DNA of 37,920 nt from an uncultured Pelagibacteraceae bacterium (lineage in GTDB: Bacteria; Pseudomonadota; Alphaproteobacteria; Pelagibacterales; Pelagibacteraceae), in the NCBI GenBank assembly GCA_902592935.1, contig CACJGD010000009.1, forward strand, positions 1-37,920. Reading direction: 5' to 3'. Of the stretch, positions 1 to 37,022 are shown in pieces. Numbering within the stretch: position 1 is the first letter of the stretch; each line of letters begins with the position of its first letter. Position numbers and translations under genes: made by a program. The notes under the pieces were generated by a model. The model worked only from the letters and a program-made list of their open reading frames with translations, made no database searches and was not told the DNA's origin.

Positions 1-950
1 CAAATGCTTGTGGAAAATTAGTTATAGCCGAACAAAACTGGGCATCTGCCGAGTTAATGGCGAACGTTGATAAAATCATTCTCGAAGAAGGATATGGATG
101 TGACGTAGAATTAGTGCCTGGTGCTACAATGCCTACATTTACCTCAATGAATGATAAAGGAACACCTGACATGAACCCTGAGCAATGGGCAAATGCGGTT
201 TACACTCCTTTGAAAAAAGCGGTAAGTGAAAAAAGATTAATTATTGCAAATAAAGCTCCAATTACCGGTCTTGGAGAAGGTTGGTGGTTGAATCCAGCAG
301 CTTTAAAAAAACACCCAGAACTTAAAGGAATGACAGCTGTTCAAATTTTAGAACGTCCAGATTTGTTTCCTGATAAAGAGGACCCATCAAAAGGTGCTTT
401 CATGGGATGTCCAGCGGGTTGGGGATGTCAATTAGCTAATGCAAATTTGTACAGAGCATTTGAAATGGAAAAAAAAGGTTGGAAACTTATTGATCCAGGT
501 TCAGCTGCAGGTTTAGATGGTTCAATTGCTAAAGCGTCAGATTCTGGTGAGCCATGGTTTGGTTATTATTGGAATCCTACATCAATGGTTGGAAAATATA
601 ATTTACAACCAGTTGATTTTGGCGTTCCTTTTGCAGGAAGAGATAATTGGGATAATTGTATAACTCTTGCAGAACAAGATTGTGCAAATCCAAAACCAAC
701 AGCTTGGACAAAATCTGAAGTAAACTCAATTGTAAGTGCTAACTTTGCTAAAACTGGTGGAAAAGATGTGCTTAAATATGTTGAAAGCAGAACTTTTCCA
801 GGCACAGTGATGAATGGAATGTTAGTTTACATGGCTGACAACCAAGCAAAAGGTTCTGATGCTGCTGTTGAGTTTTTAATAAAGCATGAAGATATTTGGA
901 CTAAGTGGGTATCTTCAGACGCTGCAAAAAAAATCAAAAAAAGTTTATAA
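1..950 (+). CDS. ABC transporter substrate-binding protein, OpuAC/ProX type (5' truncated)
   Basis: The reading frame is open from base 3, so the gene starts upstream of the window and the ATG at 57 is internal. The first visible residues (NACGKLVIAEQNW) look like the start of the mature domain just after a signal peptide, so perhaps 20-30 residues are missing. Family: periplasmic binding proteins for glycine betaine, choline or proline betaine (OpuAC). It is rich in aromatics suited to a cation-pi cage (EGWW, PAGWGCQ, GYYWNP) and has several paired Cys. It presumably delivers a quaternary ammonium or sulfonium compound to the permease that follows. No ATPase gene lies between here and 4029, so the ATPase is probably upstream. 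A hairpin separates it from the permease gene. The ligand cannot be told from sequence; the MetF and GcvT-type genes downstream suggest a methylated compound that is demethylated after uptake. Confidence 0.85.
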   Translation, partial: NACGKLVIAEQNWASAELMANVDKIILEEGYGCDVELVPGATMPTFTSMNDKGTPDMNPEQWANAVYTPLKKAVSEKRLIIANKAPITGLGEGWWLNPAALKKHPELKGMTAVQILERPDLFPDKEDPSKGAFMGCPAGWGCQLANANLYRAFEMEKKGWKLIDPGSAAGLDGSIAKASDSGEPWFGYYWNPTSMVGKYNLQPVDFGVPFAGRDNWDNCITLAEQDCANPKPTAWTKSEVNSIVSANFAKTGGKDVLKYVESRTFPGTVMNGMLVYMADNQAKGSDAAVEFLIKHEDIWTKWVSSDAAKKIKKSL

Positions 951-963
951 TTAACTTTAAATT

Positions 964-988
964 ACGAGCCTATTTAATATAGGCTCGT
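964..988 (+). promoter_or_regulatory. Intercistronic hairpin between binding protein and permease genes
   Basis: A perfect 10-bp inverted repeat (ACGAGCCTAT / ATAGGCTCGT) with a 5-base loop lies 13 bases after the binding-protein stop and 14 bases before the permease start. No T-run follows, so it is not a textbook intrinsic terminator. Such hairpins commonly protect the 3' end of the binding-protein mRNA or partly attenuate downstream transcription, giving an excess of binding protein over permease. That role is inferred. Confidence 0.6.
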
Positions 989-1002
989 AAAAATTAATAT
1001 TT

Positions 1003-1887
1003 ATGGAATTTTTTACTGAATTTCCAGAACTGGGAAGAAGATCCCAAATGGAGCTAAGAAAGGGTATAGACTTAGCTTTTAGAAATTTTTCAAAAGAATA
1101 TGGAGATAATATAGAAGCATTTTTTGATCCATTATTATTTTTTTTAGTATCATTAGAAAAATTATTATTATCTACACCATGGATAATAATTATTGGAACA
1201 ATTTGTGGATTAGCCTGGTTAGGTTCAAGAAGTTGGAAATTAGTTGTAGGAAGTGCAATTGCTTTTTTATTAATTGGTTATTTTGGAATGTGGGAAGATT
1301 GTATGGCAACAGTTGCTATTATAACTGTTTGTACAATTATTTGTATCGTCGTTGGAATTCCAATAGGAATTGTAATGGCTAGATCTTCTAGAGCTGAAAA
1401 AGCTATACTTCCTGTATTGGACATGATGCAAACAATTCCTAGTTTTGTTTATTTGATCCCAATTTTGATGTTGTTAGGTATTGGAAAAGTTCCGGGATTA
1501 ATCGCTGTTTGTGTCTATGCAGTTCCTCCAATTATTAGATTAACCAATCTAGGCATTAGAGAAGTAGATAAAGAGACTTTGGAAGCTAGCGAAGCTTTTG
1601 GAGCAACAACAGCACAAAAATTAAAATCTGTTCAAATTCCACTTGCTTTACCAACTGTTTTTGCTGGTGTAAACCAAACCATAATGATGGCTTTAGCTAT
1701 GGTAGTTATTGCTTCTATGATAGGTGTGAAAGGCCTTGGTGTACCAATATTAAGAGCCGTTTCTAACCAATATTTAGCTCTTGGAATGATGAATGGATTG
1801 GCAATAGTTGCTCTCGCAATTGTCTTTGATAGGGTCACTCAAGAATATGGAAGAAGGATCCAAAAGCATAGAGGCCAGATAAAATAA
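1003..1887 (+). CDS. ABC transporter permease, ProW/OpuAB type
   Basis: A 294-residue inner-membrane permease of the BPD_transp_1 family. The N-terminal ~50 residues are soluble and charged; hydrophobic segments follow from about residue 55. The cytoplasmic EAA loop that contacts the ATPase is visible at about 193-215 (EASEAFGATTAQKLKSVQIP). The segment DMMQTIPSFVYLIPILMLLG is characteristic of glycine betaine/proline permeases. It pairs with the binding protein just upstream, across a hairpin spacer. The start at 1003 is the first ATG and has no clear Shine-Dalgarno. The cognate ATPase is not in this part of the window; the ATPase at 28170-29201 belongs to the other transporter, though sharing cannot be excluded. 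It is followed by a 62-base gap and then the MetF-like gene. Confidence 0.88.
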   Translation: MEFFTEFPELGRRSQMELRKGIDLAFRNFSKEYGDNIEAFFDPLLFFLVSLEKLLLSTPWIIIIGTICGLAWLGSRSWKLVVGSAIAFLLIGYFGMWEDCMATVAIITVCTIICIVVGIPIGIVMARSSRAEKAILPVLDMMQTIPSFVYLIPILMLLGIGKVPGLIAVCVYAVPPIIRLTNLGIREVDKETLEASEAFGATTAQKLKSVQIPLALPTVFAGVNQTIMMALAMVVIASMIGVKGLGVPILRAVSNQYLALGMMNGLAIVALAIVFDRVTQEYGRRIQKHRGQIK

Positions 1888-1949
1888 TAGATACTTTGTT
1901 ATATCGAATTTTCTAGACTCATATTTCAAAATAAATAAATATCTTCACT

Positions 1950-2678
1950 ATGAATTTTTCATTGGAAATAGGACCTAAAACTGAAGTTGATACAGTACCA
2001 GCATTGTCTGATGTTTACATTACAATGCTACCTGGAGGTGATTACAGAGAGACTGCTGATAAAGCAGTAGAGCTTGTAAAAAAAGGATTTAACCCTGTGC
2101 CTCATTTTCCTGCTAGATCAATGCATGATGAAAAAGAACTGAAAGATTATGTTTCTATATGCAAAGATGGAGGGGTAAAGCAAGCTTTAATTATTGGAGG
2201 TGGAAGAGAACCAGCTGGTAAATTTGATAGTTCATTTCAACTTTTAGAGACAGGGTATTTTGAAAAAATGAAAATAGGAATTGCTGGACATCCCGAGGGG
2301 AGTCCTGATATATCCGACTCAGAATTAGAAAAAGCTATGATAGATAAAAAGCCTTATGCTGATTACATTGTAACACAGTGGTTACTGGATCCTCAGCCTA
2401 TTATAGATTTTATTTCTAAGCAAAGCGTACCAGTGCATGTGGGAATTACTGGGCCATTAAAAATATCTAGCTTAATCAAATTTGCTAATATTGTGGGGGC
2501 AAAAAATTCCTTAAACTTTCTTAAATCTAATTTTAGTAAGGCATTGGATTTATTGAAACCTAAAGACCCTAATGATTTAATTGGGAAAGTTAAATCGCAT
2601 ACTGATAACTTCCACATTTATACATTCGGCGGCTTGAAGGAAACTAACAAGTGGTTGAAGGAGAATAGTTATGTCTAA
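1950..2678 (+). CDS. Methylenetetrahydrofolate reductase-like protein (MetF family, short variant)
   Basis: A 242-residue protein with MTHFR-barrel features: an N-terminal Glu-containing strand (LEIGPK, E6, matching the FEFFPP strand with the catalytic Glu of MetF), LPGGDYRET at 27-35, and GHPEGSPD at 113-120, matching the A-Y/H-P-E-x-H motif. It is about 50 residues shorter than usual MetF. At the LRGD position it has GGGREPAG (84-90), with Arg where E. coli MetF has a flavin-site Asp. The likely role is oxidation of methyl-THF to methylene-THF, or a related folate step, next to the THF-dependent demethylase. Its 3' end overlaps the next gene by 8 bases (ATGTCTAA), so the two are probably translationally coupled. 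A metF gene next to a GcvT-type demethylase is also known for the vanillate demethylase LigM. It may not be the housekeeping MetF. Confidence 0.75.
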   Translation: MNFSLEIGPKTEVDTVPALSDVYITMLPGGDYRETADKAVELVKKGFNPVPHFPARSMHDEKELKDYVSICKDGGVKQALIIGGGREPAGKFDSSFQLLETGYFEKMKIGIAGHPEGSPDISDSELEKAMIDKKPYADYIVTQWLLDPQPIIDFISKQSVPVHVGITGPLKISSLIKFANIVGAKNSLNFLKSNFSKALDLLKPKDPNDLIGKVKSHTDNFHIYTFGGLKETNKWLKENSYV

Positions 2679-4029
2679 AGAATTTGACTATACTAAAGTA
2701 CAACATGTTACTTCTGTTGATCAATCAGATAGAGAAGTACCATACAATTTAAGACAAAGTGGGCCAACTAAAGTTGAATTATTAATTTCAACAAGGGTAA
2801 GAAAGTCACCTTATTGGCATTTATCAATGCAGGCTGGTTGTTGGAGAGCAACTGTATACAATCGAATTTATCATCCAAGAGGTTATGTAAAACCTGAAGA
2901 TGGTGGTGCAATGGTTGAGTACGATGCAATTGTTAACCATGTAACAATGTGGAACGTTGCTGTTGAAAGACAGATAAGAGTTAAAGGTCCGGATGCAGAA
3001 AAATTTACTGATTACGTTATAACCAGAGATGCAACAAAAATTTCTCCTATGAGAGCAAGATATGTAATTTTATGTAATGCTTATGGAGGAGTTTTAAATG
3101 ATCCAATCCTTTTAAGAATTTCAAAAGATGAATTTTGGTTTTCATTATCAGACTCTGATATTGGAATGTATTTACAAGGCGTAAATGCAGATGGAAGATT
3201 TAATTGCACAATTGAAGAAATAGATGCATGTCCAGTACAAATTCAAGGTCCTAAATCAAAAGCTTTAATGCAAGACCTTTGCGGAGACCAAGTTGATTTT
3301 GATAATATGCCTTTCTATGGATTAGCAGAAGCAACAATAGGCGGAAGAAGTTGTGTTATTTCTCAATCTGGTTTTTCAGGTGAAGCTGGTTATGAAATAT
3401 ATTTAAGAAATGCAACTTTGTATGCTGAAGATATGTGGAATGCAGTTCTAGATGCAGGAAAAAAACATCAATTAATGGTTATTGCACCTGCACACCATAG
3501 AAGAATTCAAGCAGGTATTCTTTCTTGGGGACAAGATATGGATCAACAACATAATCCTTTTCAGTGTAATTTAGGTTATCAAGTTTCATTATCTGGTAAA
3601 GGTGAATGGAATAAAAAGGCTGATTATGTTGGTAAAGCTGCTTTGGAAAAAATGGGAGCGGATATAAAAGCCGGAAAAAAACCATATAAACTTCAATTGG
3701 TTGGAATGGAGTTAGGTGGTAAACCAATAGACGATTATGCGCCTGACTTTTGGTTAGTTTCACCAGAAAATGGAGGAGATCCAGTTGGATTTATTACCTC
3801 ACCATGGTGGCATCCAGAAAAGAAAACCAATATTGCTATGGGATACGTACCGTTTGATGGAACTTTAAACCCTAATGGATTTCCAAAAAATAAAGTTGGA
3901 ACTAAGTTTAAAATTCATCTTCCAGAAAAATACTCGGATACTCCAGGAACACCTGTAGATGCTGTAGTTGTGGATATTCCATTCAAAGAGTCTTTTAACG
4001 CAAATACAAGAGAAGTTGTAAAAGGCTAA
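2671..4029 (+). CDS. GcvT/DmdA/LigM-family tetrahydrofolate-dependent demethylase, substrate unknown
   Basis: A 452-residue protein of the glycine-cleavage T-protein fold. Visible landmarks are WNVAVERQIRVKGPDAEKF near 90-110, a beta-rich middle with VQIQGPKSKALMQDL, the SQSGFSGEAGYEIY segment typical of the family's folate site, the RRIQAGILSWGQDMD segment, and a C-terminal barrel from about residue 340. It is larger than DmdA (about 370 residues) and nearer the length of LigM (about 470). Such enzymes move a methyl group from an S-, O- or N-methylated substrate to THF. It overlaps the MetF-like gene by 8 bases and shares an operon with a betaine-type transporter, so its substrate is probably what that transporter imports. 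DMSP, glycine betaine or another methylated osmolyte are all possible. I would not call it DmdA without alignment. Confidence 0.8.
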   Translation: MSKEFDYTKVQHVTSVDQSDREVPYNLRQSGPTKVELLISTRVRKSPYWHLSMQAGCWRATVYNRIYHPRGYVKPEDGGAMVEYDAIVNHVTMWNVAVERQIRVKGPDAEKFTDYVITRDATKISPMRARYVILCNAYGGVLNDPILLRISKDEFWFSLSDSDIGMYLQGVNADGRFNCTIEEIDACPVQIQGPKSKALMQDLCGDQVDFDNMPFYGLAEATIGGRSCVISQSGFSGEAGYEIYLRNATLYAEDMWNAVLDAGKKHQLMVIAPAHHRRIQAGILSWGQDMDQQHNPFQCNLGYQVSLSGKGEWNKKADYVGKAALEKMGADIKAGKKPYKLQLVGMELGGKPIDDYAPDFWLVSPENGGDPVGFITSPWWHPEKKTNIAMGYVPFDGTLNPNGFPKNKVGTKFKIHLPEKYSDTPGTPVDAVVVDIPFKESFNANTREVVKG

Positions 4030-4074: not shown

Positions 4075-4185
4075 ATGACCAAAAGTTTTCTAATAGCAGT
4101 TTGCATTATCATTGCTATTGCTTTAATAATATTTCCATTAATTGTTTCTTATAAGGCTCAAAAAAATAAAAATAAAAAAAATTAA
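4075..4185 (+). CDS. Small single-span membrane protein (36 aa)
   Basis: An ATG at 4075 opens 36 codons ending in TAA at 4183-4185. The product is MTKSF, then a strongly hydrophobic stretch (residues ~5-25, rich in Ile/Ala/Leu), then a Lys/Asn-rich tail: a one-helix inner-membrane peptide by appearance. Its stop overlaps the start of the Yip1-family gene by one base (TAATG), the usual sign of coupled translation. This supports it being real despite its size. The product is not recognised; a helper or subunit of the Yip1-like membrane protein is inferred from the coupling. It begins only 9 bases after the preceding terminator, so its promoter must overlap that terminator or read-through occurs. 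Confidence 0.55.
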   Translation: MTKSFLIAVCIIIAIALIIFPLIVSYKAQKNKNKKN

Positions 4186-4730
4186 TGTTTGCTGAATTTT
4201 TAAATATAATTTTTAAATCAATAAAATTAGACAAAACTCTTTATTCGGACAATAAAAATTTTGGAGAAGCTTCAATATACTTTGCTGGGATTATAATGAT
4301 ACTAGATGGTATTGCTGGGGCAGTGGCGGCGAATACGATTATTAAAACAGCTATCGCAATGTCTGGTCTAACTGCAATAGTTACTTGGCTAATATGGGCA
4401 ATTTTTATTTTTGTAATTGGAGTTAAATTATTTCCTGATAAGCAAACTAAAGTTTCGTTCAAAAAAGTTTTAACAGCAGTTGGTTTTGCTCATGCCCCTG
4501 GTTTATTAAGATTTTTTGCAGTCACACCAGATTTAATGATACCAATAATTTTTCTTACTCAGTTTTGGATTTTTGCAGGTTTAATAATTTCAACTAAACA
4601 AATATTAAGTTTAAAATCTAATTTTAAATCTTTTGGGATTGTCCTTTTATCATTTTTAATTATTGCATTTTTATCTATCTCATTTGTGATGAGTAGAATG
4701 AATATGCTTCCTGTTAGTCAAATTAGTTAA
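4185..4730 (+). CDS. Yip1-family integral membrane protein
   Basis: A 181-residue protein that is almost entirely hydrophobic, with about five membrane segments (residues ~30-50, 55-80, 95-115, 118-138, 148-170). The pattern fits the Yip1 domain of small bacterial membrane proteins, including the KVLTAVGFAHAPGLLRF segment near 97-113, which resembles the family's conserved Y/F-A-x-x-P motif. Its biochemical role is unknown in bacteria. The start at 4185 overlaps the stop of the 36-residue gene. Its stop overlaps the convergent minus-strand gene ending at 4727 by four bases. Confidence 0.65.
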   Translation: MFAEFLNIIFKSIKLDKTLYSDNKNFGEASIYFAGIIMILDGIAGAVAANTIIKTAIAMSGLTAIVTWLIWAIFIFVIGVKLFPDKQTKVSFKKVLTAVGFAHAPGLLRFFAVTPDLMIPIIFLTQFWIFAGLIISTKQILSLKSNFKSFGIVLLSFLIIAFLSISFVMSRMNMLPVSQIS

Positions 4731-4894
4731 AGTGGAAAAATAGTCTTAGATACTTTACAAGATTTACATATTTTAAATCCAGTAAGAATTAAATTTTGAG
4801 TAACACTTTCGTCCTCCTCTTTGCATTCGTCACAAATATTGTTTAATTCTTCAGTATCTAACTTTAGATTTTTTTCATCAATTTTATCAATCAT
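4727..4894 (-). CDS. Small CxxC/CxxC protein (55 aa), putative zinc ribbon
   Basis: On the minus strand an ATG at 4894-4892 opens 55 codons to TAA at 4729-4727. The product has two cysteine pairs, C21-x2-C24 (CDEC) and C43-x2-C46 (CKSC), 18 residues apart: the layout of a minimal zinc ribbon or rubredoxin-like knuckle. The N-terminal half is acidic. The start overlaps the stop of the DUF3726-like gene by 8 bases, and the gene fills the space exactly up to the convergent Yip1-family stop, so it is very likely real. It is last in the operon that runs from 8151. Function is unknown; metal binding is inferred from the cysteines. Confidence 0.65.
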   Translation of the reverse strand: MIDKIDEKNLKLDTEELNNICDECKEEDESVTQNLILTGFKICKSCKVSKTIFPL

Positions 4895-5498
4895 TATCAG
4901 TCAAACCAGCACCTGCTGCACCCTCTTTTAAACTGTCACTTTCCTCTACAAAAGTTTCTTCAGATAACCTGTATAAATTATTCCATTCATCGTCTGTAAA
5001 GTTATCTTCATTTTCAAGGAGATTTACTTCAATTATCTTTGCTATTTTCGGAAATTCTTGGTCAATAAAATTTGAACTAATATTTACATTTAAATTTAGT
5101 AAAATTTTTTTATCATCTATTTTTACATAAATTTTTTTTCCAATAATTTCTGATGAACGACTTATAAAGGAAATAAAAATTATTGGATAAGCAACATTTT
5201 TAAATTCAATTTTTTTTAAATTTTCTAAAACATTTATTTGATCTAAAAAACTAGTACCTAAAGTAATTGGACAATAAGAATTGTTTGATGAAGAGTTATT
5301 TTCACTAATTAAATTTAAATTTTCAAATTTACTTTTATTTTTTTCATTAAAATATTCATTAAGATGCTTAATACCTGGTAAACTAAATAGCTCTAACAAC
5401 CTTATACTTTTTCCTGTCTCCTCGGAAACTCCCCAAGAGTAGCCCGCTGCTTTTGAAGCTCTTTTAACTGTAGTTTCAATTTCACTCAGTGATTTCAT
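4887..5498 (-). CDS. DUF3726-like protein
   Basis: A 203-residue protein. The N-terminus (LSEIETTVKRASKAAGYSWG, then VSEETGKSIRLLELF) matches what I recall of DUF3726, a family of unknown function in alphaproteobacteria. The middle (~60-75) is a Ser/Asn/Glu-rich spacer, followed by a hydrophobic beta-rich stretch (YPIIFISFISRSSEIIG) and an acidic C-terminus ending GAAGAGLTDND. No signal peptide or catalytic motif is evident. Its start codon at 5498 shares a base with the end of the 554-residue gene, and its stop overlaps the small CxxC gene by 8 bases. Such tight packing implies the proteins are made together and may form one complex. The function is not known. Confidence 0.6.
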   Translation of the reverse strand: MKSLSEIETTVKRASKAAGYSWGVSEETGKSIRLLELFSLPGIKHLNEYFNEKNKSKFENLNLISENNSSSNNSYCPITLGTSFLDQINVLENLKKIEFKNVAYPIIFISFISRSSEIIGKKIYVKIDDKKILLNLNVNISSNFIDQEFPKIAKIIEVNLLENEDNFTDDEWNNLYRLSEETFVEESDSLKEGAAGAGLTDND

Positions 5499-7162
5499 TA
5501 ATAAATATTGGTTTTATATACCCACTGCTCGTCATAACTTTTTAGCTCATTTGGAAGTGGAGCTCCTTGGAACATACAAATTCTTAACCATTTGTCAGAT
5601 CGTGGATCAAATTTTAATGCCCCAAAAAAAGATAATTTTAGTCTAAGCATATCAATTGGCATTAAATCTTTACCAATTGTATTATCTTGTATTTCTGAAT
5701 AAGGAAATTTTTCTACAATAAACGCTCTCCTTACAACATGTCTTAACTCAGAATTTGATGTTAAAAACTCAGCAATAGTTAAACTATTTTTTGAGACTAA
5801 TAATTTGTCATAAAGTTTTTTTATGTCTCTTGCTATTGCTAAAGGCTGTTCTAATTCTGATCCATGCTCTTCAAAACGGTCCGCCAATCTAGGTTCCTCT
5901 TTATTTTTTGAAATAAACCAAAAGTTTTTATTATTTTCTTTTTCTTCAAAATTAATATCTAAAATGTTTGGATACTTTGCTTCGATGATATTACGCAATT
6001 CTTCAACTTTTCTATACGTTGGAATATTAAAATATTTTTCTTCATCTGAGCTCATTTTTTTTACCAAAGGATTTACAATACTGTTATAGGGTTCCATCAT
6101 TATTGAAACAATGTATTCAATACATTCCTCACAAGTATTGTCCTCTAACCATTGATATATTTTATTAAAAGGATATTCGATCTCAAAATTAAAATCTTTG
6201 TCTATAAAATTTAAAAATTTTTCAACATCTTTTAGTAATGATGAGATTTTTTTTTGTTGATATTCGCTATCAGTATTCCAGCTTGTAATATTTCTTAATG
6301 ATTTTTTTACACAATCGATAAATAAATTGCTATCTTGACTTTTTACATCTTTGATTTCTCTAATTTTTTTAAGTGCTTTTTCTCTACTTAAAATCCAATT
6401 ATTTAATAGAGTTGGGTGATTGACTATGAATGGTGCCATGCCCAAGCCTGTAGAATTACCAATTCCCAAGTTTTTACAAATATTATCATCCAGCTTAACA
6501 GCTGTTTTTGGATTTTTATAATAAGCAACATGATTAACTTGATCAAAAGTAAATTGTCTTACTAGATAAACCAACATCATTTCTAATCTAAATGGACCAT
6601 TAATTTCTTCACGATTTTTAATTCTAAATCGATCAGCAAGACCAAATTTACCTGAGCCATATACTGCTGTAGTCCTATATAAATAGCCTACTTTTGATAA
6701 TAAGTTTAAATCTGGTTGCTTACCTTTGCTCAAACTTTCAACAACGTGATTGTAAATTCTTACTGATTTGTTTGCTCTCGATAAAGTTAATTCTTTATAA
6801 GAAAGTCTACCAACTTCTTGTTTTGGAACTTCATTTTTTAATCTTTCAATGTCTTTTTTTTTAGGAACCCCATCATGTAATGTAAATGCTGCATCCCATT
6901 TTGTTGCAATTACTCTATCTGATCTTTCTTCATCTTTGATTTCATTTGCGAAACAAACTAAAGAATAAACTCTTTTATTTTTTTTAAATGAATAAACAGC
7001 TTCTCCAAAACCATTTTCATTTAAATTAAATAAATCTTTTTTATATTCCCACTCTTTAAATTCATTAAGAAAACTTCTTAAAAAAGATAATTTTGATTGA
7101 TGAAAAGATCCTAACCTGGATAATTTCATTATCTTATTTGGGTCTCTTAATTCAACTTTCAT
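5498..7162 (-). CDS. Conserved hypothetical protein (554 aa), second gene of M19-like operon
   Basis: I do not recognise a characterised family. The protein is soluble-looking, with no signal peptide or membrane helix. It has conserved-looking Gly-rich and polar motifs: VYGSGKFGLADRFR at about 168-181 and LGIGNSTGLGMAPF at about 230-243, the latter resembling a nucleotide or cofactor loop. RLEMMLVYLVRQFTFDQVNH lies between them, and a CEEC pair is at about 338-341. The middle third (240-330) is Lys-rich and helical. Its start is two bases after the stop of the M19-like gene and its stop shares a base with the DUF3726-like start. Given the dipeptidase-like partner, a role in catabolism of an amide- or peptide-like compound is possible but is only inference. 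Confidence 0.7.
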   Translation of the reverse strand: MKVELRDPNKIMKLSRLGSFHQSKLSFLRSFLNEFKEWEYKKDLFNLNENGFGEAVYSFKKNKRVYSLVCFANEIKDEERSDRVIATKWDAAFTLHDGVPKKKDIERLKNEVPKQEVGRLSYKELTLSRANKSVRIYNHVVESLSKGKQPDLNLLSKVGYLYRTTAVYGSGKFGLADRFRIKNREEINGPFRLEMMLVYLVRQFTFDQVNHVAYYKNPKTAVKLDDNICKNLGIGNSTGLGMAPFIVNHPTLLNNWILSREKALKKIREIKDVKSQDSNLFIDCVKKSLRNITSWNTDSEYQQKKISSLLKDVEKFLNFIDKDFNFEIEYPFNKIYQWLEDNTCEECIEYIVSIMMEPYNSIVNPLVKKMSSDEEKYFNIPTYRKVEELRNIIEAKYPNILDINFEEKENNKNFWFISKNKEEPRLADRFEEHGSELEQPLAIARDIKKLYDKLLVSKNSLTIAEFLTSNSELRHVVRRAFIVEKFPYSEIQDNTIGKDLMPIDMLRLKLSFFGALKFDPRSDKWLRICMFQGAPLPNELKSYDEQWVYKTNIY

Positions 7163-7164
7163 AA

Positions 7165-8151
7165 TTAAATTGATTTATAAAAATTGTACCAGTTATTTCC
7201 AAGTATTCCATGTGTCTCGGTATCTGAAAAGCCTACTTTTTTAAGACCTTTTTCAATATTTAAGAACCCTCTTGCATCAAGAAACCAATCAGGTTGTTTT
7301 GGAAAACCTGGTTTATTTTTCGAACCTTCGCCAAAATTTATACTTTTAGACCAAGAACCATTTCTCATCCATTCAACAACAGTATCTGGATGATCTAAAC
7401 AAAGATCTGATCCTATTCCTATTTTTTTTACATCCATTATTTCAACAGTTTTAGCAACCATTTCACAAAAACTATCTAGAGTACACTTTGTATTATCTTT
7501 TAAATGATGAGGGTATAACGATAGCCCTAACATGCCACCACTATCACTTAAAATTTTTAATAATTCTGAAGATTTATTTCTTTTAGCTGGATGCCAAAAA
7601 GATGGATTTGCATGTGTTATGGCAATTGGTTTTTCACTTAACTCAATTGCATCAAGAGTACTTTTTTCAGCAGAATGTGACATGTCAACTACAAGGCCAA
7701 CTCTATTCATTTCTCTTATAACCTCACGTCCAAAATTAGTAACACCACTATCTACTTTTTCATAACAGCCTGTTGCTAGCAAAGATTGGTTATTATAAGT
7801 AAGTTGCATAAACCTACATCCTAATTGATGAACTTTTTCAACTAACTTTATGTCGTCTTCAATTGGCGAACAATTTTGAAAACCAAAAAATATTGCGGTT
7901 TTATTTTCTTTATTAGCTTTATCAATATCTTGAACATTCTTACCATGTAAAATTAAATCAGAGTTTTCATTAAATAATTTTTCCCATTTTTTTATTTCAA
8001 GTTGTAATTCGTCAAAATCCTCATGGTATACAATGGTAACATGGACAGCATCTAAGCCAGCAGATCTATTAATCTCAAAGATTTTTCTAGACCAATTACA
8101 GTATTGAAGATTATCTATTTTATAATTCATACTATGTATAACTCTAATCAA
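7165..8151 (-). CDS. Membrane dipeptidase (M19)-like amidohydrolase with altered metal site
   Basis: A 328-residue protein of the renal-dipeptidase-like TIM-barrel family. VDMSHS (H159) and ITHANPS (H180) match the two conserved His-containing strands of M19, and IGSDLCLDHP (D249) matches the late Asp strand. The N-terminal H-x-D zinc motif expected near residues 10-25 is absent; the protein begins with KIDNLQYCNWSRKIFE. The position of the bridging Glu (EGG in M19) reads FQN (Q92). It may therefore bind one metal or none, or act on an unusual substrate. No signal peptide is seen, so it is probably cytoplasmic. It is the first gene of the four-gene minus-strand operon and diverges from purE across a 73-base gap. 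Confidence 0.75.
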   Translation of the reverse strand: MIRVIHSMNYKIDNLQYCNWSRKIFEINRSAGLDAVHVTIVYHEDFDELQLEIKKWEKLFNENSDLILHGKNVQDIDKANKENKTAIFFGFQNCSPIEDDIKLVEKVHQLGCRFMQLTYNNQSLLATGCYEKVDSGVTNFGREVIREMNRVGLVVDMSHSAEKSTLDAIELSEKPIAITHANPSFWHPAKRNKSSELLKILSDSGGMLGLSLYPHHLKDNTKCTLDSFCEMVAKTVEIMDVKKIGIGSDLCLDHPDTVVEWMRNGSWSKSINFGEGSKNKPGFPKQPDWFLDARGFLNIEKGLKKVGFSDTETHGILGNNWYNFYKSI

Positions 8152-13221: not shown

Positions 13222-13809
13222 TTATATAGATTTAAAGCCAAACTCTAGAGATGCATCTGTAATGGAGTGATAAAAAGATTCTCCAAAACTTCTTAAAGCA
13301 AACAGTCTTACTTTGTCTGGATTTTCATCTAACCTATCAACAGTGAAAGCTATTCCATTATAGGTTGAATTTATTGAGTTGTTTTTTTCTAAATTATTAA
13401 AATTAAAAGGACATCCTTTTTTTAGAACTTCCATTGTTTCTTGTCCTTCAATTTCAATTATTGCTCTTGAATGTGATAAATCTGTTACAGCAAAATCTGT
13501 ATCTTTAAATTGTTCTATAACATTTTTAATTAAATCTTTTTTTGTAGATACTAAAAGCCAGTTATTTGGACCATTCCACAAAATCCTTGTATTCTGATTA
13601 AATACTACACTTAATGGTTCATTTTTTAATTTTAACTCATCAATATCAATACCATCATATGAAACTGAAGAATTTTTATACTGAACAATTTGAACAATTA
13701 GTAAATTTTTAATTTCAGAAATTTTAAGTAACTCTTTTTCGTTTTTACCTTCATGATCTCCAAATTGACCTATTTTATGAACGTGTTCTAATGCAGAAAT
13801 TAAACTCAT
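13222..13809 (-). CDS. soxG: Sarcosine oxidase gamma subunit (SoxG-like; MgdD-like possible)
   Basis: A 195-residue small subunit of the heterotetrameric oxidase, related in fold to the first domain of GcvT. Conserved-looking segments are [11 protein letters not shown] near 78-90 and [16 protein letters not shown] near 110-125. It is last in the order B-D-A-G. Its ATG overlaps the soxA stop (ATGA, 4 bases), giving coupled translation. The subunit is structural and helps present the folate domain. Whether the complex oxidises sarcosine or N-methylglutamate is open (see soxA). Confidence 0.85.
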
Positions 13810-16802
13810 GATCTAACCCTTTCACCTTTTGGATCTACATAGTGTGATGAAACTATCTCAACAGGGATTACTTTATTTTTAAGTGGTGACATTGCAAATA
13901 ACTTTTCACCGATCATATTTTTTCCATCTTTAAGTATTGCTAAAGAAAAAGGATTGTCATATTCGACACTCCAGCATGATGCGGAGATATGCCCTAATTT
14001 TGGATTTGGCAATCGAGCTTTATCATCTTTAACTAAATGAGAGCCTTCTGGAATACTTGTTTTTTTATCCAACGGTACTACCCCTACTATTCTTTGTCTA
14101 TCTTCAGCAATGAATGCAGATCGTTGTAGTGATCTTTTTCCAATAAAATCTTTCTTTTTACTAACAAGACCCTCTAAAGCATTATCGTATGGAATTGTTC
14201 TGCCATCAAGTTCTGATCCAGCAACATGACCCATTTCAATTCTGAGAGTTGATAATGCTTCTGTTCCATATGGTTGTATTTTAAACTCATCACCAACTTT
14301 CATTATTTTATCCCACATAAAGTTTCCATTATCAGACTCAACATTTACTTCATAAGCAAGCTCTCCTGAAAATGAAATTCTAAATATTCTTGCTTTCACT
14401 CCAAACAAATCCCCCTCAATGTAACCCATAAAAGGTAAGCCCTCGTTTGATACATCAGAACTAGGAAATAATTTTTGTAATAAATCTCTTGATTTGGGTC
14501 CAGCAATAGCTGCTCCTGCCCATTGTTCTGTAGTTGAAACTACATTTACATTTAGTTCAGGCCAAACCAATTGCAAATAGTACTCTAAATGTGAAAGAAC
14601 ATTTGCTGCTTGAGCTGTAGTTGTAGTCATATGATAATGATTTTCTGAAATTCTTGTAGTTGTTCCATCATCCATAACAATTCCATCTTCTCTTAACATT
14701 ACACCGTATCTAGCTTTACCAACTGGTAGTTTTAGCCATGCATTGGTATAAACTCTATTTAATAACTCTGCTGCATCAGGACCTTTAATATCAATTTTTC
14801 CTAAAGTTGTTACGTCACAAACTCCAACATTTGTTCTCACATTTTTAGCCTCTCTTTTAGATGCCTCAAATAAATTTTCATTTCCTCTTTTGTAATACCT
14901 TGGTCTTAACCAAACACCCGCATCAACAAAAACTGCATTATTTTTTTCATGCCATTCATGCATTGGTGATTTTCTGGTTGGTTTTGAATGTTTTCCAACT
15001 TCTCTTCCAACAATTGCTCCAATAGAAACTGGAGTATATGGAGGTCTAAAAGTTGTATGACCTACTGCAGGAACAACTTTGTTTTCAATTTCAGAAACTA
15101 GCTGAAGACCATTTAAATTACTTGTTTTGCCTTGGTCTGTTGCCATGCCAAGAGTGGTATATCTTTTAACGTGTTCAATAGATCGATAACCTTCTCTTAA
15201 AGCTATTTCTACATCGGATACTGATACATCATTTTGAAAATCTAAAAATCTTTTATAATTTTTACCTTTTGGCAACGGGACACACCAAAACTTATCATGT
15301 TGAGAAGATTTCTTTTCAACTACATTTGGAATAGCTACCTCATTATCTTTTTTTGTAATTTTTTTTGATATTTCACTTCCTGCTGTAAATGAAGTTTTTA
15401 GAGTTTCCTCAAGCGAAAATACTCCATTGGCTGCACCTAAAGTAGTTTCATTTTGCTTTGATTGCCCAGGAACAAATGCATCAATTTCTTCTTTAAACTT
15501 TGTTTTATTTCCTGATTGTGAAGCTAAATGAATAGTTGGTGTCCAAAAACCAGAAACGCAAATACAATCACATTGTATATTTTCTATTTTACCTAGTTGT
15601 TTTTTATCTTCAGAAATACTCGCAATATCTGCAGATTTAACTTTTTTATATCCTTGTGCTGCAACCACAACATAAGAATTCTTTATATTAATTCCCAAAT
15701 TTTTTGCTTCATCGATTATTTCTGAATCAGGATTATTTCTTGAGTCTAAAACAACCGGATCTACTCCGTGTTTTTTAAATTCAATTGCTGTTTCGTATCC
15801 ACTATCATTATTTGTAAATACCAATGGTTTTTTTCCAACTAAAACACCATATACTTTTAAATATTCTTTAGCTGCTGAAGAAAGCATAACTCCTGGTGTA
15901 TCATTATTTCCAAAAACTATTGGTCTTTCAATTGATCCGGAAGAAATTAAAACTTCTTTAGCACGAATATACCATAGTCTTTTATTGGGGTGATATTTTT
16001 TAGTTTCAGGTAAATGATCGCTAACTTTTTCCGACATCACAAGCATATTGTGATCATAGTAACCAAAAATTTGAGATCTATTTTTTACAACAACATTTGG
16101 CATTGTTTTGAGTTCTGCAATTATTCCCTCGGCCCAATCTTTTCCTGATTGATTGCCAATATTGACATCGCTAGTTAGTAAAGATCCACCAAATCTTGGT
16201 TTGTCTTCAGCTAAAATTACTTTAGCTCCATTTTTTGCTGCAGCATATGCGCTAGCTAATCCTGAGGGTCCTGATCCTGCAATTAATAAATCACAATATT
16301 CATACTTATGTTCATATCTTTCATTATCATGCTTTGTTGATGCTACACCTAAGCCAGCTGCTTTTCTAATAAATGGTTCGTAAATTCGATACCAAAAACT
16401 TTTAGGCCACATAAAAGTTTTATAATAAAATCCAGCTGGTAGAAAAATTTTTAAAAAATTATTTATTGCTCCAATATCAAAATTCACGCTCGGCCAACAA
16501 TTAACACTTTTAGCCTCTAAACCCTCAAAAAGTTCTTGCTCCGTTGCTTTAATATTAGGTTCTGTTTCACCATTTCTATAAAGTTGAACTACAGCATAAG
16601 GCTCATCTACACCTGCACCAAAGAAACCTCTAGGTCTGTGATATTTAAAGCTCCTTCCTACTAAATGAACTCCATTTGCCAATAAGGCTGATGCTAAAGT
16701 ATCGCCTTCAAAACCAAAGTAAGTTGTGCCATTAAACTTAAATGATAACTTTTTATCTCTATTTAATAATCCAACATTTTCAATTCTAAAAGCTTGTGAC
16801 AT
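13806..16802 (-). CDS. soxA: Sarcosine oxidase alpha subunit (SoxA-like; MgdC-like possible)
   Basis: A 998-residue large subunit. Order: an N-terminal Fer2_4-like domain (~20-110, [17 protein letters not shown]), an NAD-binding flavoprotein domain starting [11 protein letters not shown] (GxGxxG at 176-181), and a C-terminal GcvT domain (about 610-985, with [21 protein letters not shown] and [15 protein letters not shown]). In sarcosine oxidase the imine or formaldehyde from demethylation passes to THF in this last domain, giving methylene-THF. N-methylglutamate dehydrogenase (mgdABCD) has the same architecture, and the window also holds gmaS- and mgsA-like genes, so either activity is possible. 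The start overlaps the soxD stop by one base. Length is normal for the family. Confidence 0.9.
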
Positions 16803-17071
16803 TAGGCAACTTCCTCATCAGCTTTAAAAGTTCTGAAAATTTCATGGGTTGCAGTATCTCTCTCAACCTTTATCCATTGTCTACATCCAGAAATATGTTG
16901 CCACAGCTCTAAATGCTTTCCTCTCAAACTTTTTCTATTATAAACGAAATCATCCCATTCTTGATCAGAAACTTCTTTATTAAGCTCAGGTCTTTTAACA
17001 CTCGCGTCTCCACCGTATGAAAATTCATTTTGAGATCTCATTCCACAATGTGGGCAATTTATATAAAGCAT
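16802..17071 (-). CDS. soxD: Sarcosine oxidase delta subunit (SoxD-like; MgdB-like possible)
   Basis: An 89-residue small zinc-binding subunit. The ligand set is visible as C6-P-H-C9 at the N-terminus and H59-x3-C63 (HISGC) near the C-terminus, as expected for the family. Length is standard. It sits directly between soxB and soxA, abutting the soxB stop and overlapping soxA by one base. It stabilises the interface of the tetramer. Confidence 0.93.
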   Translation of the reverse strand: MLYINCPHCGMRSQNEFSYGGDASVKRPELNKEVSDQEWDDFVYNRKSLRGKHLELWQHISGCRQWIKVERDTATHEIFRTFKADEEVA

Positions 17072-18328
17072 TTATGATATCCAAGTTTTAGTACCAAGTC
17101 CTTTTTCATCAATAAGATTACCTGTACTAAATCTATTTAAACTATAACCAGCATTTAATTCATGAACTCTGTCTTGTGCAATCGTATGAGCAAATGTCCA
17201 ACCCGAAGCAGGTGTAGCTTTAAAACCGCCATAACACCATCCACAATTTAAATATAAACCTTCAATGTGTGTTTTATCAATTATAGGTGATCCATCCATT
17301 GACATATCCATAATACCGCCCCATGTTCTAAGCATTTTTAATTTACTTAAAAACGGCATCATTGCTATTCCTTCAGTTAATACATGTTGCAATGTTGGCA
17401 GATTTCCTCTTTGAGCGTAACTGTTATAACCATCAAGATCACCACCCATTACCATCTCGCCTTTGTCTGATTGACTTACATAAAAGTGTCCTGCACCAAA
17501 CGTAACTACATTATCTAAAACTGGTTTTACTGGTTCAGAAACACATGCTTGAAGTAAATGAGTTTCGATTGGTAAAGTCATGTTTAATTTTTCTGCTAAA
17601 ATATTTGTGCTTCCAGCAACACATATACCAACTTTTTTAGCTTTAATATTTCCTCTTGAAGTTCTTATTCCTTTTATTTTACCAGCCACAACATCAAAAC
17701 CTGTTACCTCGCAGTTTTGAATTATGTCTACACCCATAGAGTCTGCTTGACGCGCATACCCCCAAGCAACTGCATCATGCCTAGCAGTTCCTGCACTTGG
17801 CTGCATTAATCCTCCAAAAATAGGAAATCTTACATTTTCAGAAAAATCAGCCATTGGAATTATCTCTTTAACTTGTTCTCTATTAAGTAAAACTGCATCA
17901 ATTCCATTTAATCTCATTGAATTTCCTCTTCGGGCATATGCATTCATTTGAGCATCTGAATGCGCAAGGTTAATAATTCCTCTTGGAGAAAACATTACGT
18001 TGTAATTTAAATCTTGACTCATCTTTCTCCATAAATCCATTCCAAACTCGCTGAAAAGACCATTTTCATCATGCATATAATTTGATCTAATTATCGTAGT
18101 GTTACGTCCAACATTTCCACCACCTATCCAACCTTTTTCTATAATTGCTACATTGGTAATATTGTGTTCTTTGGCTAGATAATAAGCTGTAGCTAGTCCA
18201 TGGCCTCCACCACCTATGATTACAACATCATATTCCTCTTTAGGTGTTGGGTCTTTCCACGCCAAATCCCAATTTTCATGGTTAGAAAAAGCGTTTTTAA
18301 CTAAGTTAAATATAGAATATTTTTGCAT
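17072..18328 (-). CDS. soxB: Sarcosine oxidase beta subunit (SoxB-like; MgdA-like possible)
   Basis: A 418-residue FAD-dependent DAO-family subunit that performs the amine oxidation. YDVVIIGGGGHGLATAYYLA gives the FAD dinucleotide motif (GGGGHG at 39-44). GNVGRNTTIIRSNY (71-84) is typical of the subunit. H184 in ARHDAVAWG matches the position where sarcosine oxidase beta carries covalent FMN. First gene of the B-D-A-G operon, transcribed divergently from fhs with a 130-base AT-rich gap. It is related to, but clearly different from, the stand-alone flavoprotein at 34160-35488. Sarcosine against N-methylglutamate specificity is unresolved. Confidence 0.9.
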   Translation of the reverse strand: MQKYSIFNLVKNAFSNHENWDLAWKDPTPKEEYDVVIIGGGGHGLATAYYLAKEHNITNVAIIEKGWIGGGNVGRNTTIIRSNYMHDENGLFSEFGMDLWRKMSQDLNYNVMFSPRGIINLAHSDAQMNAYARRGNSMRLNGIDAVLLNREQVKEIIPMADFSENVRFPIFGGLMQPSAGTARHDAVAWGYARQADSMGVDIIQNCEVTGFDVVAGKIKGIRTSRGNIKAKKVGICVAGSTNILAEKLNMTLPIETHLLQACVSEPVKPVLDNVVTFGAGHFYVSQSDKGEMVMGGDLDGYNSYAQRGNLPTLQHVLTEGIAMMPFLSKLKMLRTWGGIMDMSMDGSPIIDKTHIEGLYLNCGWCYGGFKATPASGWTFAHTIAQDRVHELNAGYSLNRFSTGNLIDEKGLGTKTWIS

Positions 18329-22078: not shown

Positions 22079-22155
22079 AACAAAATATAATTTTATTTTT
22101 TTAAAAATTGTTAGTAAGATATATTTATAAATTTATTAATGATAGGAAAAATTCT

Positions 22156-23490
22156 ATGTCAAAAGTAGCAATCATCGGTGCTGGCCCTTGTGGACTTTCA
22201 ATTTTAAGAGCATTTGAACATTTAGAAAAAAAAGGAGAAAAAATTCCTGAAATAGTTTGCTTTGAAAAACAAGAAAGTTGGGGCGGTTTGTGGAATTACA
22301 ACTGGAGAACTGGTTCAGATCAATATGGAGATCCTGTTCCTAACAGTATGTATAGATACTTGTGGTCAAATGGACCTAAAGAGTGCTTAGAATTTGCTGA
22401 CTATTCTTTTGATGAACATTTTGGAAAGCCAATTCCTTCTTTTCCTCCAAGAGAGGTTTTGCAAGATTATATATTAGGAAGAGTAAGTAAAGGAAATGTA
22501 AAAAGTAAGATTAAATTTAATACAAGAGTTACAAATACTGTTTATAAAAATGATAAATTTGAAATAAGCTACCAGGACAAAGCAAATAATAAAATGTTAA
22601 ATGATACGTTTGATTATGTGGTAGTCTCTACAGGTCATTTTTCTGTGCCTTTTATTCCTGAATACGAGGGAATGAATTCTTTTCCAGGAAGAATAATGCA
22701 CTCACATGATTTTAGAGATGCTGAAGAATTCAGAGGAAAAGATGTAATTGTTTTAGGAAGCAGTTATTCTGCTGAAGATGTGGCTCTACAATGTAATAAG
22801 TATGGCGCTAAAAGTGTAACAATCGGTTACAGGCATAATCCAATGGGTTTCAAATGGCCAAAAGGTATGAAAGAAGTTCATTACTTAGATAGGTTAGAAG
22901 GAAAAAAAGCTATATTTAAAGATGGAACAGAACAAAATGCTGATGTAGTTATTTTATGTACAGGATATCTACATCATTTTCCATTTTTAGATGAAAGCTT
23001 AAAATTAAAAACACATAACAGATTATATCCACCAAAACTTTACAAAGGTGTTGTGTGGCAAGATAATCATAAACTTTTATATTTAGGTATGCAGGACCAG
23101 TTTCATACATTTAACATGTTTGACTGTCAGGGATGGTATGCGAGAGATGTGATAATGGGAAAAATCAAAATGCCTAGTAATGATGAAATAGATAAAGACA
23201 TTAATAAGTGGGTTGCTATGGAAGAAAAATTAGAAAATCCTGATCAAATGATTGATTTTCAAACAGAATATACCAAAGAGCTTCATGAGATGTCTGATTA
23301 CCCTAAAATTGACTTTGAATTAATTAGAAAACATTTCAAAGAATGGGAACATCATAAAGTAGAGGATATTCTGACTTATAGAAACAAATCATTCTCTTCT
23401 CCTGTAACTGGATCGGTTGCACCTATACACCATACTCCTTGGGAAAAAGCTATGGATGACTCAATGAAGACGTATTTAAATCAAAAATAA
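22156..23490 (+). CDS. tmm: Trimethylamine monooxygenase (flavin-containing monooxygenase)
   Basis: A 444-residue FMO that oxidises trimethylamine to TMAO with NADPH and O2. The FAD motif is GAGPCG (8-13), the FMO signature is FPGRIMHSHDF, the NADPH motif is GSSYSAED, and CTGYLHHFPF is typical. Segments such as WGGLWNYNWRTG, YLWSNGPKECLEFADY and FDEHFGKPI are recognisably those of bacterial Tmm. I chose the ATG at 22156 (MSKVAIIG), with AGGA 8 bases upstream; an in-frame TTG at 22108 would add 16 residues absent from Tmm. It is convergent with gpsA. The location near the TMAO transporter and tdm genes supports the assignment. Confidence 0.95.
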   Translation: MSKVAIIGAGPCGLSILRAFEHLEKKGEKIPEIVCFEKQESWGGLWNYNWRTGSDQYGDPVPNSMYRYLWSNGPKECLEFADYSFDEHFGKPIPSFPPREVLQDYILGRVSKGNVKSKIKFNTRVTNTVYKNDKFEISYQDKANNKMLNDTFDYVVVSTGHFSVPFIPEYEGMNSFPGRIMHSHDFRDAEEFRGKDVIVLGSSYSAEDVALQCNKYGAKSVTIGYRHNPMGFKWPKGMKEVHYLDRLEGKKAIFKDGTEQNADVVILCTGYLHHFPFLDESLKLKTHNRLYPPKLYKGVVWQDNHKLLYLGMQDQFHTFNMFDCQGWYARDVIMGKIKMPSNDEIDKDINKWVAMEEKLENPDQMIDFQTEYTKELHEMSDYPKIDFELIRKHFKEWEHHKVEDILTYRNKSFSSPVTGSVAPIHHTPWEKAMDDSMKTYLNQK

Positions 23491-23492
23491 TA

Positions 23493-24521: not shown

Positions 24522-24529
24522 ATGTTAAG

Positions 24530-26008: not shown

Positions 26009-26012
26009 CGGA

Positions 26013-28166: not shown

Positions 28167-28169
28167 ATT

Positions 28170-29201: not shown

Positions 29202-29266
29202 AAATTGTTTTAAAGTTATATTAAATTCTATAAAATTAAAATGTTAATAATTGTTGCCTTTCCTCG

Positions 29267-30195: not shown

Positions 30196-30220
30196 GAATT
30201 TAGTTTACACAAAATCATAT

Positions 30221-30254
30221 AAAAAAAAATCCCCCCCAACAAGTTGGGGGAGAT
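30221..30254 (-). terminator. Strong Rho-independent terminator after tmoX
   Basis: Read on the minus strand, a GC-rich stem (5 G-C and 2 A-T pairs around a 4-base loop, extended by 3 more pairs past one mismatch) is followed by a run of nine or more T. It begins 22 bases after the tmoX stop. It should stop most transcripts, leaving the binding protein far more abundant than the transporter genes downstream. Confidence 0.93.
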
Positions 30255-30276
30255 TTTAAATTTTTAACTTTAATCC

Positions 30277-35541: not shown

Positions 35542-35547
35542 GAGGGG
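35542..35547 (+). promoter_or_regulatory. Shine-Dalgarno deciding the GmaS/GlnT-type start
   Basis: GAGGGG lies 5 bases before ATG 35553. An alternative in-frame GTG at 35547 falls inside this motif, so initiation at 35553 is favoured. Confidence 0.75.
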
Positions 35548-35552
35548 TGAAA

Positions 35553-37022
35553 ATGACAGATCTAGAAAAACACGTTAACCAACCGGGACGTTCTAAATTA
35601 GTAAAAGACGTTAGAGCAAAAATTAAAGAGCTTGGTATAACTTATATTTATTTTCAATTTATTTCAGTTACTGGGAGAGTTGTAGGAAAAGGTATCCCAG
35701 CTGACCATTGGGAAAGAACTGCAGAAAAAGGTTTTCAATTAGTTTATGGTTCTACTGCAAACTTATTTTTAGATCGTCATAATAATTACATCGGATACGG
35801 ACCTGAGGCTATGGAGCTTGTAGGAATTCCTGATCCAGAAACTTTTGTTCAATTACCTTGGGATAAAAGAGTTGCAAGAGTTTTCTGTACTTGTTTCAGA
35901 AACAGAGAAGAAAGAGTAAACCCAGGTGGTCATTTAACTTCAGATTGCAGAGGAAATCTAAGAATATTCATGGATGAATTTAAAAAGAAACACGGGCTTG
36001 AATTAAGAGTTGGTACAGAACCAGAAATGATGTGGTTGACTAAAAATGAGGATGGCACACCTTCAGGTAAAGGATTCTCAAAACCTTTCTGTTATCACAT
36101 TGATCAATTCGAATCATTAAGACCAGTATTTATGCAAGTGATAGAATACGCAAACGCTATGGGTCTTGATATGATTCAAGGAGACCATGAAGATGCACCA
36201 GGTCAATTAGAATTAAACTGGACTTATGATAATGTTTTAAGAAACGCAGACAGATTATCTACTTACAGACAAATTTGTGCTCAAGTTGCAAGAGAACATA
36301 ATTTAATTGCTTGCTTTATGACAAAACCATTTATGGGTGTTTCAGCTAGTGGTTGCCATACAAATATGTCTTTATGGAAAGGTGGAAAGATCAAAGTAAA
36401 CAGACTCGGTCATAAAACTTTACCAGGTGTTGAAGGAGTTTTTAGTTACGTTGAGGGTGGAACAAATACTTTTATGCCTGATACAAAAGATATGCAAATG
36501 CCGGGTAAAATTGGTTTGCAATCAATTGCAGGTATCATGAAGCACTTGCCAGCATTAACAGCTCTTGGATCTTCAACTGTAAATTCTTACAGAAGATTAT
36601 GGGATCAAGGATTTTGGGCTCCTGTTTATGCCGATTGGGGATATCAAAACAGAACTTGTGGCTTAAGGGTTTCTGCTCCAGGAAGATTTGAATACAGATC
36701 AGTAGACTCGATGCACAATCCTTATCTATTAGGTGCTGCATTATTAAAAGCTTGCGACGAAGGTATAAGTAAGAAAATGAAACCAGCAGCTCCTGAGTCT
36801 AGAAATATTTATGAAGCTCAAAAAGCTGGTAAAGATGTTAAAAAACTTCCATTAAGTTTGGGTGAAGCTTTAGATAGACTGGCAGAAGATGAAGTAATCA
36901 AATCTGCAATGCCAGATGAAATGTATAAAGTTTTCCATTGGTATAAAAACGATGAGTGGGAAAGATTTCTTGGTGCAACAACACAATGGGATCTGGATAC
37001 TTATCTTGATTGTCTACCGTAG
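35553..37022 (+). CDS. gmaS: GlnT-type glutamine synthetase family ligase, probable gamma-glutamylmethylamide synthetase
   Basis: A 489-residue ligase of the glutamine-synthetase superfamily. Active-site segments are present: EPEMMW, DHEDAPGQLELNW, GVSASGCHTNMSLW, VNSYRRL and RFEYRSVDSMHNPYLLGAAL. The DHEDAxGQxExNW motif is shared with GlnT/GmaS-type enzymes. GmaS joins monomethylamine to glutamate with ATP. Compared with GmaS (about 440-450 residues) it has roughly 40 extra residues, mostly at the N-terminus and the insert near FCTCFRNREERVNPGG. It is 32 bases upstream of an MgsA/GlxB-like amidotransferase, the order also seen in glnT-glxB type clusters. A true glutamine synthetase paralogue or another amine as substrate is possible. 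Confidence 0.72.
   Translation: MTDLEKHVNQPGRSKLVKDVRAKIKELGITYIYFQFISVTGRVVGKGIPADHWERTAEKGFQLVYGSTANLFLDRHNNYIGYGPEAMELVGIPDPETFVQLPWDKRVARVFCTCFRNREERVNPGGHLTSDCRGNLRIFMDEFKKKHGLELRVGTEPEMMWLTKNEDGTPSGKGFSKPFCYHIDQFESLRPVFMQVIEYANAMGLDMIQGDHEDAPGQLELNWTYDNVLRNADRLSTYRQICAQVAREHNLIACFMTKPFMGVSASGCHTNMSLWKGGKIKVNRLGHKTLPGVEGVFSYVEGGTNTFMPDTKDMQMPGKIGLQSIAGIMKHLPALTALGSSTVNSYRRLWDQGFWAPVYADWGYQNRTCGLRVSAPGRFEYRSVDSMHNPYLLGAALLKACDEGISKKMKPAAPESRNIYEAQKAGKDVKKLPLSLGEALDRLAEDEVIKSAMPDEMYKVFHWYKNDEWERFLGATTQWDLDTYLDCLP

Follow-up and report, generated by a model that had tools for sequence, protein, structure and literature searches.

In the trigonelline pathway of Acinetobacter baylyi (TgnABCDE) a two-component flavin oxygenase acts first, the N-methylpyridinium carboxylate is opened to an N-formyl intermediate, and an aldehyde dehydrogenase (ALDH) and a hydrolase follow. 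For homarine (N-methylpicolinate), an operon named homABCDER is said to occur in Rhodobacterales and SAR11 and to have N-methylglutamate as a product. We report here on an operon of four genes in a 37,920-nucleotide stretch of DNA (hereafter the window) from an uncultured Pelagibacteraceae bacterium (contig CACJGD010000009.1, positions 1 to 37,920), encoding an M19-like protein, a 554-residue protein that we call U554, a DUF3726 protein and a mini-protein with two CxxC pairs. We propose, with a probability of roughly 0.7, that the first three genes (the trio) are the core of a catabolic pathway leading from an N-methylated ring betaine, most likely homarine, to N-methylglutamate, here in a streamlined SAR11 form. 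The choice of homarine is an inference that draws on the published operon.

Homarine is described as an osmolyte of marine phytoplankton, and one report has it drawn down within hours by Ruegeria pomeroyi (PMC12817926). A 2026 paper that cites the homarine pathway (Ferrer-Gonzalez et al., 2026, Nat Microbiol, doi 10.1038/s41564-026-02313-7) assigns N-methylglutamate dehydrogenase (Mgd) a part in homarine catabolism and places tmaR, encoding an AraC-type regulator, next to mgd. Among the matches listed in a literature text search for homarine, one paper cited the pathway and the others mentioned the metabolite, while a search for trigonelline brought no pathway paper among the matches listed. 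The roseobacter loci described below hold five enzyme-type genes and a LysR regulator gene, a count that fits the letters of homABCDER, and they are linked to Mgd-type genes; the occurrence in SAR11 reported for that operon is seen here for the trio. Compared with the roseobacter set, the operon of Pelagibacter lacks LysR, ALDH and the oxidoreductase Ldh, and adds the CxxC mini-protein. The difference from TgnABCDE is that no gene annotated as a two-component flavin oxygenase is listed between LysR and Ldh in Ruegeria TM1040 or Aliiroseovarius. In our view the trio-containing cluster corresponds to the homarine operon reported by Ferrer-Gonzalez et al. (2026). A preliminary description of the window knew of no described role for the gene set; this has probably been overtaken, as the cluster in its wider extent appears to match the pathway published in 2026. 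The kind of system is probably already in print, and the chemistry of U554 and DUF3726 is the part worth pursuing. In the dimethylglycine (dgcAB) loci of Pseudomonas and Vibrio, too, genes for amine demethylation are accompanied by a dipeptidase and a hypothetical protein, a likeness of description; the passages on these loci name neither U554 nor DUF3726 (PMC12093977, PMC8079746).

The four open reading frames are tightly packed on the minus strand between 4727 and 8151, and their coordinates give intergenic spacings of +2, -1 and -8 bases, in agreement with the preliminary description. That description had read the packing as a sign of a complex or a single pathway, and the genes do behave as one functional unit, since the trio stays together beyond SAR11 and DUF3726 is never found without U554 in a sample of 337 genomes of the class. 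It had also suggested a survey of gene order: among the 80 SAR11 loci kept by one search, all four genes stand in order in 73, and the other seven lack genes only where the contig ends. The set of four has to be narrowed, however. Its core is the trio M19-U554-DUF3726, which recurs across Alphaproteobacteria beyond SAR11, large genomes and soil Rhizobiales included, whereas the mini-protein was found in Pelagibacter only (11 of 12 loci; it was not found in G005) and not downstream of DUF3726 in the five loci of a sister family that were examined. Of 197 genomes sampled from the order, 138 have a U554 match (98 among the 117 of the genus, with the other 40 confined to a single sister family), as do 47 of the 337 class genomes. 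DUF3726 is present in 39 of the latter, every one of which has U554, and it always lies directly downstream on the same strand, with 9 to 122 bp between match ends; in eight class genomes a U554 match has no DUF3726 match, several of these being fragments or distant relatives. Of the 20 distant loci compared, each spanning about 13-20 kb, 18 showed M19 and 17 DUF3726, with one more (G315) by Pfam; an ALDH stands beside M19 in nine, an Ldh oxidoreductase is present in nine, a LysR regulator in six and a betaine-type transporter in nine, two of the BCCT matches being weak. No relative appeared in one scan of viral contigs and one of phage records.

The M19-like gene (7165..8151, minus strand) encodes 328 residues from a TTG at 8151; an ATG at 8130 (321 residues) is probably the true start, judging by the sequence, because several relatives begin at the matching Met. 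The family labels given earlier to this protein and to DUF3726 held, both Pfam scores exceeding their cut-offs (for M19, PF01244, E = 6.7e-69, 232.9 bits against 26). The best match in the PDB is 2i5g (E = 9.6e-58), which we take to be PA5396 and which has the same GFQN pattern. The domain is shared over most of its length with peptidase family M19 (renal dipeptidase), and two later His and a late Asp are kept, the first His being Asp in one copy (L161) and thus conserved in 34 of 35. With the metal-ligand roles and the location of the His-x-Asp site taken as described for the family, it nevertheless differs from classical M19 peptidases in lacking both His-x-Asp and the bridging Glu. The site of the latter, placed by alignment, is Gln (G-x-QN) in 35 of 35 copies, the N-terminal His-x-Asp site has Leu and, for the most part, Tyr in all 34 copies that cover it (L131 starts after the site), and Tyr stands in place of the His of the LTHN motif. 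The unusual metal site that had been noticed in the window is therefore common to every copy covering these positions, and we describe the protein as an M19-like amidohydrolase that lacks the metal site of classical dipeptidases.

U554 (5498..7162, minus strand) belongs to a conserved family with no Pfam entry. The protein of the window had no Pfam or NCBIfam match, two of the 31 members of a diverse alignment had one stray family match each (E = 0.031 and 0.046), a profile search of the PDB returned nothing credible (best E = 0.09), and profile comparison found no relation to the cluster Ldh or to DUF3726. Both motifs first quoted for it are present. The GNSTGLGMAPF loop is part of a conserved region where G233, G235, N236 and G241 do not vary across the 31 sequences; no His or Cys is invariant among them, H249 being nearly so. 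The nucleotide-binding reading of GSGKFGLADR, on the other hand, did not survive: many relatives have NGKFG at this place and distant ones have NGTFG, so that a GxGK-type loop is not invariant, and we rejected a P-loop on this ground. One Pelagibacter genome carries U554 split into two pieces with stops (G192:C4:70183-71836), which is either a broken copy or an assembly error. There is also a distant second subfamily, 23-28% identical to U554 of the window and with its own small partner and dipeptidase (L162:9944-13390, L163:9962-13358, L164:9941-13437), whose neighbours in Sinorhizobium, Neorhizobium and Variovorax are IclR regulators together with transporters of ABC or tripartite type. In Mesorhizobium ciceri WSM1284 (L166:10022-12423) a U554-like gene and a small partner lie between ABC transporter genes, and no M19 gene is listed in that stretch.

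The DUF3726 protein (4887..5498, minus strand, 203 residues; PF12525, E = 1e-22, 80.2 bits against a cut-off of 22.1) gave an AlphaFold2 model with a predicted local distance difference test score (pLDDT) of 76.5 and a predicted template modelling score (pTM) of 0.76. In VIA-align the model reached Z 8.0-9.7, in a method where values near 8 can be common, with 15 Ldh_2-type entries over 170-182 of the 203 residues, and the next row stood at 4.0. The first six rows of Foldseek were also of Ldh_2 type (probability 0.93-0.99), yet with E of 0.03 or worse; profile comparison placed the N-terminal helices of DUF3726 and Ldh_2 in the same register, weakly (probability 10%, E = 0.003), and a profile search of the PDB gave nothing credible (best E = 1.2). 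We favour a true relation, in which the modelled protein would be a shortened Ldh_2-like fold, because of the gap in Z to the next rows and the coverage. DUF3726 would thus be like the Ldh_2 family (ureidoglycolate dehydrogenase, delta1-piperideine-2-carboxylate reductase) in fold and in the register of its N-terminal helices, and unlike it in being about 110-160 residues shorter, in its 5-11% identity and in having no Ser-His-Gly motif. The aligned DUF3726 region does not contain this motif, whose His is presumably catalytic, whereas 10 of the 11 Ldh proteins from the clusters do. Given this absence and a length smaller by over 100 residues, DUF3726 is probably a non-catalytic relative. Its conserved GAGAGL-DND tail (residues 176-203) was modelled with low confidence, and a literature text search found no mention of the name DUF3726. 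Since DUF3726 always lies beside U554 (39 of 39), we infer that the two are subunits of one enzyme, with U554 as the probable large subunit and DUF3726 as the probable small one.

The neighbourhoods of the trio point to N-methylglutamate. Ruegeria TM1040 has one contiguous series: SoxB-SoxD-SoxA-SoxG (Mgd-type), a helix-turn-helix regulator, LysR, ALDH, M19, a BCCT transporter, U554, DUF3726 and Ldh; the candidate hom genes there are TM1040_RS02315 to RS02345. The regulator and SoxBDAG beside LysR-ALDH-M19 look like the arrangement of tmaR beside mgd, and by this analogy of position the regulator may be TmaR-like. Much the same sets occur in Aliiroseovarius and Phaeobacter, except that the transporter stands elsewhere or that one record does not list Ldh; Phaeobacter inhibens DSM 17395 has two sets. 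In the sister SAR11 family, genes of N-methylglutamate-pathway type lie within about 0.8 kb of M19 in six of eight loci: an Mgd-type operon at 65 bp (G027), gmaS-mgsABC-like genes at about 320 bp (G093), and a GmaS-type gene at about 0.8 kb with a 199-residue open reading frame between in four others (G083, G039, G035 and G002, the last cut by a contig end). The GmaS-type protein of G083 is 53% identical to that of Aminobacter. The intervening frame of G083 (L203:6463-7062) matches an Asp/Asn beta-hydroxylase family (30.5 bits, cut-off 22.6), and frames of the same length stand between GmaS-type gene and M19 in L204, L205 and L206. Genes of this type thus accompany the trio in several arrangements, and N-methylglutamate metabolism is probably what the module feeds.

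The window itself has a SoxG-SoxA-SoxB-type operon about 9 kb from M19 (13222..18328, minus strand; soxA and soxB families over the cut-off, soxG below), a candidate Mgd. Its SoxB is 64% identical to the copy in the glnT-glutamate synthase-sox block of Aminobacter SR38, a putative Mgd. Pelagibacter genomes have two SoxB types, one at least 85% identical to the window copy and another, elsewhere in the genome, 57-59% identical, and these are possibly Mgd and a true sarcosine oxidase. A glutamine-synthetase-like protein (35547..37022, plus strand; Gln-synt_C), followed by an MgsA-like gene from 37055, is a candidate GmaS; it is 85% identical to the copy near M19 in G093 and falls below the cut-off of the type III glutamine synthetase model.

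Put together, the pathway would begin with uptake by a BCCT or ProXWV-type betaine transporter, as genomic linkage suggests. U554 and DUF3726, as a heteromeric enzyme, would de-aromatise or open the ring, which is the step left for them once M19, ALDH and Ldh are given the others. The M19-like protein would then hydrolyse the resulting amide or lactam C-N bond, perhaps freeing ring carbon 6 as formate; ALDH would oxidise a C5 semialdehyde, the Ldh_2 reductase would reduce C=N or C=C to yield N-methylglutamate, and Mgd would demethylate this to glutamate. The roseobacter ALDH is nearest, below the cut-off, to dehydrogenases of 2,5-dioxovalerate, a C5 semialdehyde, and the cluster Ldh belongs to PF02615, whose fold includes delta1-piperideine-2-carboxylate reductase; both would therefore suit the steps before demethylation, for which the genes are present in the roseobacter cluster and not in this SAR11 operon. 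By arithmetic, homarine C7H7NO2 + 4 H2O = N-methylglutamate C6H11NO4 + formate CH2O2 + 2[H]; as the equation balances with four waters and the loss of one ring carbon, O2 is not strictly required. We also entertain, quite tentatively and against the odds, the idea that U554-DUF3726 is a new kind of two-subunit enzyme, in which a large protein of unknown fold and a catalytically silent Ldh_2-like subunit, its conserved C-terminal tail completing the active site, would open an N-methylpyridinium ring with no recognised oxygenase cofactor, the distant subfamily using the same pair on other substrates. This is held less likely because Rieske oxygenase genes lie near some loci. If the homarine pathway is as we propose, U554 in 98 of the 117 genus genomes would tie very abundant ocean heterotrophs to homarine as a nitrogen source. 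Solving U554-DUF3726, a pair to which the libraries searched assign no chemistry, would explain the opening of a pyridinium ring, and many genomes would have their annotation "membrane dipeptidase" put right.

The distribution of these genes within the genus, in counts uncorrected for kinship, is in part consistent with this pathway. In 87 of the 117 genomes U554 occurs along with an Ldh relative that shares 33-35% identity with the Ldh of roseobacters and is encoded elsewhere in the genome, unlinked to the operon; 11 have U554 only, seven Ldh only and 12 neither, a co-occurrence that fits a missing step being supplied in trans. For U554 and window-type SoxB the numbers are 88, 10, seven and 12, respectively; this association is weak because the genes are about 10 kb apart, and that with Ldh is stronger. 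Six of the seven Ldh-only genomes have SoxB of the window type, so that gaps in the assemblies may account for the absence of U554 there, and in four of the seven SoxB-only genomes (G030, G068, G078, G190) SoxB lies less than 10 kb from the contig start, on the side expected for U554.

Several observations weigh against the pathway from homarine to N-methylglutamate. Ten of the 98 U554-bearing genus genomes lack window-type SoxB (G171, with three weaker matches, is unsure), and six of the ten (G036, G086, G128, G147, G157, G194) also lack the Ldh relative; 11 genomes lack U554, SoxB and the Ldh relative together, so shared ancestry may explain the association. An Mgd/Sox operon is nearby in just two of the 20 distant loci, and the sister-family loci G049 and G006 showed no N-methylglutamate gene near M19, G049 having a GmaS-like fragment at a contig end (68 bits). 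A tree of 14 SoxB sequences does not place the window copy firmly with Mgd, the sister-family ALDH is nearest to betaine-aldehyde dehydrogenases (below the cut-off), and the AlphaFold2 model of U554, built from 28 close SAR11 sequences, is poor (pLDDT 49, pTM 0.30). Lastly, a Rieske oxygenase, encoded near the operon in seven of 12 loci of Pelagibacter and in two of Phaeobacter, could alternatively carry out an oxidative step and thereby part of the chemistry; the genes listed for the stretches of TM1040 and Aliiroseovarius include no such enzyme. The Rieske genes at L207:14261-15490 and L212:16276-17463 adjoin an MTHFR-like/GcvT-like operon, and the former is distantly GbcA-like (124.8 bits, cut-off 670).

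Among other explanations, the one that survives best, which we still consider unlikely, is that the same kind of module (uptake, U554-DUF3726, M19 hydrolase, ALDH and Ldh) serves another N-methylated betaine, for example trigonelline or a compound of N-methylproline type, with N-methylglutamate or folate taking over the N-methyl group. The loci repeatedly include betaine transporters and folate-linked demethylases, soil Rhizobiales carry the module, and the distant subfamily keeps company with other transporters in Sinorhizobium, Neorhizobium and Variovorax. However, the link between Mgd and homarine that is in print favours homarine over other betaines, and we would expect a pathway freeing methylamine to need GmaS and not the Mgd-type genes that adjoin the trio. 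Far less probable is that the trio processes a modified dipeptide or a cofactor, with M19 a true dipeptidase and U554-DUF3726 a maturation complex; M19 is the best family for the hydrolase and some loci adjoin ABC importers, but the dipeptidase ligands His-x-Asp and Glu are replaced and the trio is surrounded by genes of betaine and one-carbon metabolism. That unrelated genes were brought together by accident in a streamlined genome is hardly credible, for although short spacers are general in SAR11, the trio persists in large genomes and all 39 DUF3726 genes lie directly downstream of U554.

The window has further features. The 55-residue mini-protein (4727..4894, minus strand) has no Pfam or NCBIfam match over any cut-off; both its CxxC pairs are kept in 17 of 17 aligned copies, and it is probably a zinc ribbon. 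The source genome is incomplete (935 kb, 75% complete), its relatives being Pelagibacter (SAR11). The stretch 22108-37920 is a trimethylamine region, with Tmm over its curated cut-off, a Tdm-like gene just below, a transporter of betaine/trimethylamine N-oxide type, a SoxB-like oxidase and the GmaS-like and MgsA-like genes. On the other side, parts of a betaine-type ABC transporter (OpuAC, ProW), a possible uptake system, and MTHFR-like and GcvT/DmdA-like genes, all assigned by family matches, converge on the operon (57..4029, plus strand); the MTHFR/GcvT pair is convergent on it in 11 of 12 Pelagibacter loci, and OpuAC-ProW is seen in three of 12. Between them and the operon, at 4185-4730, a gene for a 181-residue protein with no credible family also converges on it, overlapping the end of the mini-protein gene by four bases, and 11 of the 12 Pelagibacter loci retain this neighbour.

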